The notes under the pieces are model-generated. The model was not told the origin of the DNA. It did no database searches and saw nothing but the letters and a program-made list of their open reading frames with translations. Made by a program: the position numbers and the translations under genes. A stretch of 44,349 bases of DNA. Origin: an uncultured Armatimonadota bacterium. GTDB lineage: Bacteria > Armatimonadota > Fimbriimonadia > Fimbriimonadales > Fimbriimonadaceae. The stretch is taken from positions 1 to 44,349 of the forward strand of contig CAIYLG010000030.1 in NCBI GenBank assembly GCA_903927025.1, read 5' to 3'. Position 1 is the first letter of the stretch, and each line of letters starts with the position of its first letter. Below are positions 1,575 to 5,163 of the stretch, piece by piece.

Positions 1575-1607
1575 CGTATTTTGACGGGTCTATGAAGATT
1601 TGTGTGG
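1575..1607 (+). repeat. left inverted repeat of the ISL3 element
   Basis: The inner part TATGAAGATTTGTGTGG (1591-1607) matches the reverse complement of 2835-2851 (TATGAGGTTTTGTGTGG) with two differences. The outer 16 bases match only weakly. The only usable in-frame start codon of the transposase (TTG, 1600) lies inside this repeat. Confidence 0.65.
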
Positions 1608-2852
1608 GTTCGCGCAGTCTTATTGCGCGCGCGACGTCGATTTCTTCACCTCTCTCTTGGGCCTGACTTCTTCTTGGTCGGTGTCTTCTGTGGATCTTAG
1701 CGAGGAGTCTCGAACGGTTGAGATTCATGTTGAGCATGTCGGTGTTCTGAACCGGCCGGTTTGTGGAGGAGTCTGCAGCCTCTACGATCATTCCTCCGAG
1801 CGTCGCTGGCGGGACCTGGACACGATGGGCTTCGCAACGTTCGTTGTTGCCCGGGTACCTGGTTCGAACTACAGGGATCACGGGGTGAAGCAGCTTGGTG
1901 TTCCCTGGGCAAGCCCGAACTCCCATATGACCCACGGTCTTGAGGACTGGACGATTCGCGTCCTTGAGCTTACGAAGAGTCAGATCCGCACGGCTCGTCT
2001 TCTTCGGCTGAGCGCTCAGCAGGTTCACGACGTGATGCACCGGGCAGTGGTCCGCGGTCTTGCCAGGCGTCGGCTCTGTGAGATCTCCCACGTGAGCGTG
2101 GACGAGAAGGGCTTCCAGCGCGGTCGAAAGTTCGCGACGGTGGTGTGCGACACCGGTGGGAAGAGGGTGCTGGAAGTAGAGCTGGGCCGCGATGAGAAGA
2201 CGGCGATCGCGGCATTTCCCAGCATCCCTGAACCGGAGAAGGTCAAGACGGTGAGTCTGGACATGGCGGAATCCTTCCGCAATGCGGCAATGGCCCAGTT
2301 TCCGAACGCCGACATCGTTCATGACCGATTCCACGTCGCAGCGATGCTTGGAGAGGCTGTGGACGATACGCGCAGAGCAGAGGTCAAGAAGCATCCGGAA
2401 CTCAGGGAGTCGAGATTCATATGGCTCAAGAACCCAGAGAATCTGACCGCGAACCAGAAGGCCGCCTTTGACGCCCTCGTTGGGACAGAGCTCAAAACAG
2501 CGGAGGCGTACGCATTCAAGCAGACCTTCAGAGCGTTCTTTGAACAGGACGATGTGCCGGCGGGAACAGAGTTCTTCGAGAACTGGACAGCTGAGCTGGA
2601 AGGACACGATCTGCCAAAAATGCACAAGGTCACCAGAACTCTTGAGAAGAACATACAGGGCCTGCTCAACTACCTCAAGTGGAGAATCACCAACGCCTAT
2701 GGAGAATCACCAACGCCTATGGAGAAGCCGCCAATGCGCTCATTCAGGAAATCAAGACTGTCGCAAGAGGATTTAGAAAGTTTGAAAATTTCAGAACAGC
2801 AATCCTATTCTTCCTGGGCAAACTTGAACTCCATCCACACAAAACCTCATAA
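1600..2852 (+). pseudogene. ISL3-family transposase, frameshifted
   Basis: DDE/D transposase of the ISL3 family. Visible landmarks are the YDHSSERRWRDLDTM block after the N-terminal zinc finger, the first acidic residue in SVDEKGF, the second in VSLDMAESFRNA with the family signature VHDRFHV, and the last block LKWRITNAYGE. Two zinc-finger cysteines appear replaced (RPVC instead of CPVC, and SNY instead of SNC). A perfect 20-bp tandem duplication at 2681-2720 shifts the frame at the catalytic Glu region. Removing one copy by eye restores the typical tail ANALIQEIKTVARGF through ELHPHKTS, with a stop at 2850-2852. As it stands, the frame runs on to 3567 and gives a 655-residue chimera. No ATG exists for the frame; TTG at 1600 is the only candidate. 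Confidence 0.9.
2681..2720 (+). repeat. perfect 20-bp tandem duplication inside the transposase
   Basis: Bases 2681-2700 and 2701-2720 are identical (ggagaatcaccaacgcctat). Twenty is not a multiple of three, so the second copy throws the transposase out of frame at its NAYGE catalytic motif. Confidence 0.98.
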
Positions 2853-2867
2853 AGCCAGAGAAAAGCC
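2835..2867 (+). repeat. right inverted repeat of the ISL3 element
   Basis: Reverse-complement partner of 1575-1607. It overlaps the original transposase stop codon at 2850-2852, as is common at the right end of compact ISL3 elements. Confidence 0.65.
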
Positions 2868-3567
2868 AATTGGCTCAGACGCGTCGAGAGAATTTTATTC
2901 CCTAATTGGGTCTATCTCGGATTCTGACTGGGATTCCCTGCTGGACCACCAGGTTTCACGGTGCGATCAACTTGCCATCACATCCAATCTCATTCGTTAC
3001 CTAAAGAGCGATAGTTCGATTCGACTGAATTCTTCAAAAGTCTTAGATGATTGGCATTTGCTGGCGCTAGAAAACTGCCCCGAAGTTCCAGATGAGGTGT
3101 CGAAGGTCGAAGTGATTCCCACATTGACCCGAGTAGTTAAGAATTACCCAGTTGGCAGGCCAATTCCAGATGGCTGGGATCCGTTCCCAGCCATTGGGAC
3201 CTATTTGTGTCCGCGAGCTGCTGTCATGCAGGATGACGATGGGAAATTGGTTCTTATTCTCAATCGCGAGAAAGCTGAGGCGCGGATGAACCGCGAGATG
3301 TTCTGGTTAGGGAATCGCGTCGATTACGATGTTAGGCTTTACCTATCGCCGGGCATCTTGATTGAGCAAACCATCTCTGGGTCAGTTGTAGCCGACAAGG
3401 CGAGTTTTCGGTACACAGATCTCACCGCTGCTGAACGCGATGAGGCTTGGATTGAGGGACAAAGGCAGGCATTTGACTGGGCTAAGAGTCATCCGCCCGT
3501 GGACATGACGGCGCCTAAACAGCAAAGCGAAAGCGCGGGTGGCATTCCTCCATTCGCCATGCGATAG
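2868..3567 (+). pseudogene. start-less remnant of an unidentified gene fused in frame to the broken transposase
   Basis: About 233 codons continue in the shifted transposase frame after the right end of the IS. The translation looks like genuine protein, with a mixed and structured composition (for example YPVGRPIPDGWDPFPAIGTYLCPRAA followed by FWLGNRVDYDVRLYLSPG), rather than random sequence. I recognise no family. There is no ATG near the beginning, so the natural interpretation is a gene whose 5' part was removed when the IS landed or by a later deletion. No matching upstream fragment is visible left of the IS, where the genes run the other way. It could alternatively start at an internal GTG or ATG. 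No function is proposed. Confidence 0.55.
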
Positions 3568-3753: not shown

Positions 3754-5163
3754 ATGGATCGCCTGATCGTAAGCACCCAGAATCCACACCTTCTCGCAAC
3801 CGAGGGAGGTGACCCCCTGCTCATTATCGGCGACACCGCTTGGGAGCTGTTCCACCGGCTGACTCTGCCAGAAATTGAGCTCTACCTAGCGACGCGAGCC
3901 CGGCAGGGCTTCAACATGATCTGGGCAAACATCCTGCCCGAATTCAACGGCCTCACCGAGCCCAATCGGAATGGCGACCTTCCCTTTGAGGATCTCGACC
4001 CACTTAAGCCGGTTGAGTCGTACTTTGAATTCATCGACGAGGTCGTCGCCATGGCCGCTTCCAAAGAGATCCATGTCGGCCTTTTGCCGACATGGGGGGA
4101 CAAGCTCACCGCCCCCTGGGGTGCGGGTCCGGTGCTGTTTCACCTGGACAACCTAGAAGTCTCTCGAAGCTATGCCCGGTGGCTTGGAACTCGGTATGCG
4201 AGCCAGCCGAACGTCATTTGGGTCCTCGGTGGAGACCGTCCGCCGCGGCTGTTCGGCCCTGCCGATCAATTTCCGAAACGCAATGCTGTCGAAGCAGGCC
4301 TGGATGCTGAGACGGATTGGACTCCTATCTGGCGAGAATTCGCATCAGGCCTCCGTGAGGGAGGTGCAACGCAGCTCATCGGCTACCATCCGCAAGGCGG
4401 ACCTCATTCGACGTCCGAATTTCTTCATGGCGAGCCATGGCTGGACTTCAACGCAATCCAGTCTGGGCACGGCGGCGGTCATGACGTGCCGATCTGGAAT
4501 TGGATCGAACGTGACTACAACTTATCGCCCCTGAAGCCGACGATGGACGCCGAGCCCAACTACGAGGATCATCCCGTCAACCCTTGGCCGGTTTGGGATC
4601 CGAAGAACGGATTCTTTGAGGACTACGACGTTCGCAAACAGGTCTACCGATCGATCTTCGCGGGCGGCTGCGGAGTCATCTATGGCAACCACTGCGTCTG
4701 GCAGTTTGCCAGTGAACTCTATGGTCCCGTGCTCGAGGTTCGGATGCCCTGGCAACAAGCAATCCTACAGCCTGGTGCGGAGCAAATGCGTCACCTGAGA
4801 GACCTTATCGAATCGATCGGCTTCGGCAGCATCCGTCCAGATCAAAGCCTCATCGTCAACCATCTTGAATCCGGCCAAGGGCTCGTCCGCGTCGCCAGAA
4901 CCGATGACTGCATCCTCGTGTACAGCGCAGCTCCTGCAAAGCTCCAGGTCCACCTGCCATGGTCGGGAGAAGACCGCGTCGTAGTCTCCATATTTGAGAC
5001 AAAGACAGGTGAAGTAGTCCCGTTGTACACCACTACCGGCGCTAGCACCCCGATCTGTGACGCGTTTGGACTTAGGCAAGACCACCTGACGATTTACCGA
5101 CGAGAGCAAGATCAGGCCAAATGGATCGAGCCGCATGCTTGGCGAAATAACCAGCAGGTGTGA
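3754..5163 (+). CDS. DUF4038-type glycoside hydrolase (GH140 apiosidase-like)
   Basis: A 469-residue predicted retaining glycosidase of the (beta/alpha)8-barrel type. The opening NPHLLATEGGDPLLIIGDTAWELFHRLT and the later GFNMIWANILPEFNG are hallmarks of DUF4038 proteins, whose characterised members include GH140 enzymes that release apiose-containing side chains of rhamnogalacturonan II. Candidate catalytic acids are Asp161 (LGGDRPP) and Glu267 (MDAEPNYE). The last ~90 residues resemble the small beta-domain (collagen-binding-like) usually found after DUF4038. There is no clear signal peptide, so the enzyme may be cytoplasmic and act on imported oligosaccharides. The true substrate cannot be read from the sequence. 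It stands alone in a 186-bp plus 283-bp intergenic setting. Confidence 0.85.
   Translation: MDRLIVSTQNPHLLATEGGDPLLIIGDTAWELFHRLTLPEIELYLATRARQGFNMIWANILPEFNGLTEPNRNGDLPFEDLDPLKPVESYFEFIDEVVAMAASKEIHVGLLPTWGDKLTAPWGAGPVLFHLDNLEVSRSYARWLGTRYASQPNVIWVLGGDRPPRLFGPADQFPKRNAVEAGLDAETDWTPIWREFASGLREGGATQLIGYHPQGGPHSTSEFLHGEPWLDFNAIQSGHGGGHDVPIWNWIERDYNLSPLKPTMDAEPNYEDHPVNPWPVWDPKNGFFEDYDVRKQVYRSIFAGGCGVIYGNHCVWQFASELYGPVLEVRMPWQQAILQPGAEQMRHLRDLIESIGFGSIRPDQSLIVNHLESGQGLVRVARTDDCILVYSAAPAKLQVHLPWSGEDRVVVSIFETKTGEVVPLYTTTGASTPICDAFGLRQDHLTIYRREQDQAKWIEPHAWRNNQQV

Follow-up and report, generated by a model that had tools for sequence, protein, structure and literature searches.

A decayed ISL3-family insertion sequence with a tandem duplication at an apparent rearrangement junction in an Armatimonadota genome

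Transposases of the ISL3 family are built from a zinc ribbon, an HTH region and a DDE domain. Among described elements, Tn7546 has an ISL3 transposase, GGGTCTTCGGA repeats and an 8-base target duplication (PMC9782665). The insertion sequence (IS) that we analyzed has the same transposase family, similar terminal bases and, as an element type, an 8-base duplication; Tn7546 differs in carrying mercury genes and is presented as a transposon-like element that occurs in several strains (PMC9782665). Our element lies in a stretch of 44,349 nucleotides from an uncultured Armatimonadota bacterium (contig CAIYLG010000030.1, assembly GCA_903927025.1; hereafter the window). With the ISL3 group it shares the HTH and DDE domain, a zinc-ribbon region, terminal repeats beginning GGGTCT or GGCTCT and, in sister copies, 8-base target duplications. 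The window copy has lost its putative start, two of the four zinc ligands, the continuity of its frame and its target duplication.

The element, its ends and its relatives

The element comprises the following features.

1586..2856, + strand: ISL3-family insertion sequence, 1271 bases here (junctions of related copies; Pfam, NCBIfam)
1586..1607, + strand: left terminal inverted repeat, 82% complementary to 2835-2856 over 22 nt
2709..2852, + strand: C-terminal part of the transposase in its own frame, reached only by a change of frame; its stop ends at 2852
2835..2856, − strand: right terminal inverted repeat, in which base 2852 is A

Both ends, 1586 and 2856, were set by the junctions of related copies in three genomes (G019, G004 and G012), and the left terminal repeat is kept at other insertions of relatives. 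The transposase matches Pfam DDE_Tnp_ISL3 (PF01610; E 4e-52, 177.8 bits against a cut-off of 23) and NCBIfam transpos_ISL3 (NF033550; 238.5 bits, cut-off 180). Frame 1 from 1600 covers positions 1-215 of PF01610, and window positions 2709-2849, in another frame, match positions 209-240 of 240. These profile matches in two frames bear out the first-pass annotation, which had proposed an ISL3 element whose frame was shifted by a duplication. The catalytic Asp, Asp and Glu motifs remain in frame 1, and the zinc-ribbon region scores above the PF14690 cut-off (30.4 bits against 25.5), although two of its four Cys residues have been replaced in the window copy.

Sister copies occur in G019 (Umea_bin-06016, Armatimonadetes), which belongs to the same genus as the window's genome (G000). 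They are 90-91% identical to the window copy over the left 119-141 bases; copies in G004 are about 81% identical, and the termini are the same in both groups. Unlike the window copy, the sister copies retain the GTG start and the right-end base, and have a single copy of the duplicated unit wherever that site is spanned. In addition, they carry target duplications and the window copy has none: of the 12 left junctions examined (6 from G019 and 6 of the 11 listed for G004), 10 have an exact 8-base partner among the right junctions of their own genome. We excluded the apparent right flank on G019:C59, which is simply the left flank of that contig in reverse complement. The flanks of the window copy, ATTTTGAC and AGAGAAAA, agree at only 2/8 positions. 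Within ~30 bases of the ends of the window copy, the best candidate for an 8-base target duplication was a 7/8 match away from both ends, one among 930 comparisons, which we took as chance. The element type thus has this feature, and the window copy has lost it. The sister copies sit at many sites, which implies recent movement there; the window copy can probably no longer move.

Within its own genome, the only other copy is a truncated relic (G000:C27:2824-3266). This relic is of the same IS group, is 81% identical over its left 441 bases and contains in-frame stops. No further ISL3 DDE domain was found in this 66-contig assembly, from which collapsed copies could be missing. A search of genome_contigs for close full-length relatives returned 10 loci, of which only one, a contig end (L038), was close; none was found among viral_contigs. 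Six further G019 contigs (C54, C49, C35, C32, C27 and C25; L106-L111) have only the first 26 left-end bases in common with the element (96%), in matches lying ~140 bases from contig ends, and probably belong to another multicopy IS that shares this terminal repeat.

The tandem duplication and other lesions

Several changes distinguish the window copy.

1627..1629, + strand: GCG at the putative transposase start; GTG in G019, G004 and the relic on G000:C27
1753..1755, + strand: first zinc-ribbon Cys codon, now Arg (sequence comparison)
1870..1872, + strand: third zinc-ribbon Cys codon, now Tyr (sequence comparison)
2680..2719, + strand: tandem duplication of 20 bases, both copies identical; a partial third copy of 7 bases runs on to 2726

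Tandem Repeats Finder reports 2680-2726 as an array of period 20 with 2.3 copies and 100% matches, 47 bases in total. Across lags 10-500, no other perfect lagged run in the window is as long as its 27 matches at lag 20; the longest runs in 20 first-order Markov sequences were 11-16. It is the same duplication that had been placed one base later, at 2681-2720, and it is real. Its 20 bases put the frameshift just after the catalytic Glu motif. Three sister-species copies span this site (G019 contigs C9, C79 and C43), and all three have one copy of the unit, measuring 218 bases where the window copy measures 238; the 20-base gap was inspected in the alignment for C9 and C79. A query of 2560-2860 found matches in five of the six genomes searched, and the other right-end matches begin at or after ~2716, where contigs break at the repeat, so that the duplication site lies outside them. 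Since each of the three spanning relatives has one copy, the duplication arose in the window's lineage and is lineage-specific.

The heptamer TGGAGAA stands at the start of the duplicated unit and again right after it. A short direct repeat at such spacing is the usual substrate for replication slippage. The ancestor would have had a single copy of the unit with TGGAGAA twice, 20 bases apart, beside the catalytic-Glu motif, and slipped-strand mispairing between these 7-base repeats, which is probably the origin of the duplication, would have doubled the 20 bases. The perfect identity of the two copies had been read as suggesting a recent event. This reading is not supported, because zero differences between two 20-base copies still allow, by simple arithmetic, up to ~3/40 = 7.5% change per branch at 95%.

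The duplication is not the only lesion. The GTG of G019 and G004 is preceded, four codons upstream, by an in-frame stop; it is the first start after this stop and thus the likely start codon. Among the four left-end sequences compared, the window alone has GCG there. Both replaced zinc-ribbon positions are Cys in the G000:C27 relic and in L032-L036 and L039, and G019 retains the first Cys where it is readable (L006 is without a ribbon, and L004, a poorly framed fragment, was excluded). At the right end, base 2852 is A in the window copy and G in six of six comparators. In the C-terminal part of the transposase, the codons at 2796 and 2730 encode Thr and Ala, whereas each of the six comparators has Ile or Val at these positions. 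Toward the left end, 11 of the 76 codons compared differ from every comparator. The statement that the duplication killed the transposase goes too far. The duplication disrupts the frame, but the start, two Cys, the right-end base and the target duplication have also been lost, either before or after it. Several changes have inactivated this decaying IS, and the duplication is one of them.

Note that this decay could be young. Over the first 232 bases, the window copy and G019 differ by 15 synonymous and 6 other codon changes, so most of the divergence would have accrued under selection. The ~1,100 bases before the duplication are free of stops, as is the 711-base host remnant described below, and both stretches exceed what is expected of long-decayed DNA, which counts against long decay.

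The fused frame and the truncated host gene

Two overlapping features extend to position 3567.

1600..3567, + strand: chimeric frame of 655 codons, defined mechanically; it opens at TTG 1600 and closes with a stop that ends at 3567
2857..3567, + strand: remnant of 236 aa from the C-terminal part of an uncharacterised ~700-aa host protein (homology)

After the duplication, the chimera reads the +1 frame of the transposase C-terminal part. In the window copy and in the G004 and G012 copies examined, no stop interrupts this shifted frame before it passes the right end; in G019, those copies that extend far enough meet a stop 96 bases short of the right end. The element thus contributes a natural open frame to part of the chimera. 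The duplication would place a ribosome in a frame without a stop before the right end and carry it into the host-gene remnant. The 655-codon frame had been called an artefact of mutation; it is an annotation artefact, but not solely one of mutation, since its 3′ part comes from a genuine host gene that has been truncated. The transposase C-terminus, as had been predicted, lies in the other frame with its stop ending at 2852. In all likelihood, the fused frame yields no functional product.

A 715-aa frame on G000:C53 aligns gap-free with the remnant through its residues 482-709, at 39-40% identity; the alignment begins at remnant residue 1, the first codon after the IS end (2857). The remnant is 34% identical to residues 473-706 of a 706-aa frame in G019, and matches were found in four of the 20 genus genomes, its own included. 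The stretch 2857-3567 is thus not random sequence but the C-terminal third of a host protein. No Pfam family was found in the two members scanned, and NCBIfam matches were far below cut-off. The N-terminal part of the host protein is absent from the window, and a search of the assembly with the C53 N-terminal part recovered only two intact paralogues and not the missing part. In the four intact homologues examined (L104, L105, L112 and L113), a gene for a protein of ~190-230 residues lies directly upstream; this small gene is absent from the window. To the left of the IS, the flanking gene at 957-1496 has a single relative among the 20 genus genomes, a paralogue in its own genome.

Because the first homologous codon directly follows the IS and the N-terminal part was not found in the assembly, the IS lies at a deletion or rearrangement junction. 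This junction would stem from a deletion next to the IS, from recombination of two IS copies or, with lower probability, from a misjoin, and the upstream part of the host gene would have been lost when the IS became this junction. A misjoin through the repeated IS would have brought together flanks from different insertions, which would account for the truncated host gene and for the missing target duplication; the 20-base duplication itself could likewise be an assembly error. Contigs of the sister genomes G019 and G004 end where copies of this IS lie, so the repeat is hard to assemble, and the window copy does lack a target duplication. However, its own genome has only one short relic besides this copy, no contig with the missing N-terminal part of the host protein was found, and the 47-base array is much shorter than the ~140-base overlaps at which sister contigs break, so that a single read would span it. 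We therefore regard an assembly error as improbable.

Could the fused frame nevertheless be used? It is very unlikely that the fusion is a domesticated protein, expressed and retained by selection as a new gene that joins the DNA-binding and catalytic parts of the transposase to the C-terminal domain of the uncharacterised host protein. Its 655 codons are open, the catalytic motifs persist in frame 1 and the remnant aligns gap-free over 228 residues with its paralogue; against this, the putative native start and two zinc ligands are gone, the sole upstream start (TTG 1600) sits within the terminal repeat, ~45 codons from the duplication to the IS end are read out of frame, and no orthologue of the fusion was found when 20 genus genomes were searched with either part. 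That a transposase is still produced by programmed −1 frameshifting across the duplication is hardly credible. A −1 shift would reach the C-terminal frame, which overlaps the first frame between 2646 and 2852, but no in-phase slippery heptamer was found in this overlap (its single X XXY YYZ heptamer, at 2786, is in the wrong phase), the relatives encode the transposase in one uninterrupted frame and the start codon has been lost. We consider it highly probable that the locus is a decayed, immobile ISL3 element with a slippage duplication and a fused frame at a deletion or rearrangement junction, most likely without a functional product.

Neighborhood and meaning

Around the element, a prepilin-like frame on the minus strand (353-982) contains an imperfect 27-base tandem repeat (881-940; 75%), and an apiosidase-like glycoside hydrolase gene (3754-5163; PF13204, 319.5 bits) lies downstream of the remnant. 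The whole locus is a product of ordinary genome decay, and its significance extends little beyond annotation. As a clear worked example, it combines an ISL3 element located at a rearrangement junction with probable slippage between 7-base repeats inside an IS, and with an automated frame in which a transposase read out of frame runs into a truncated host gene. It also shows how little the perfect identity of short duplicates says about recency.
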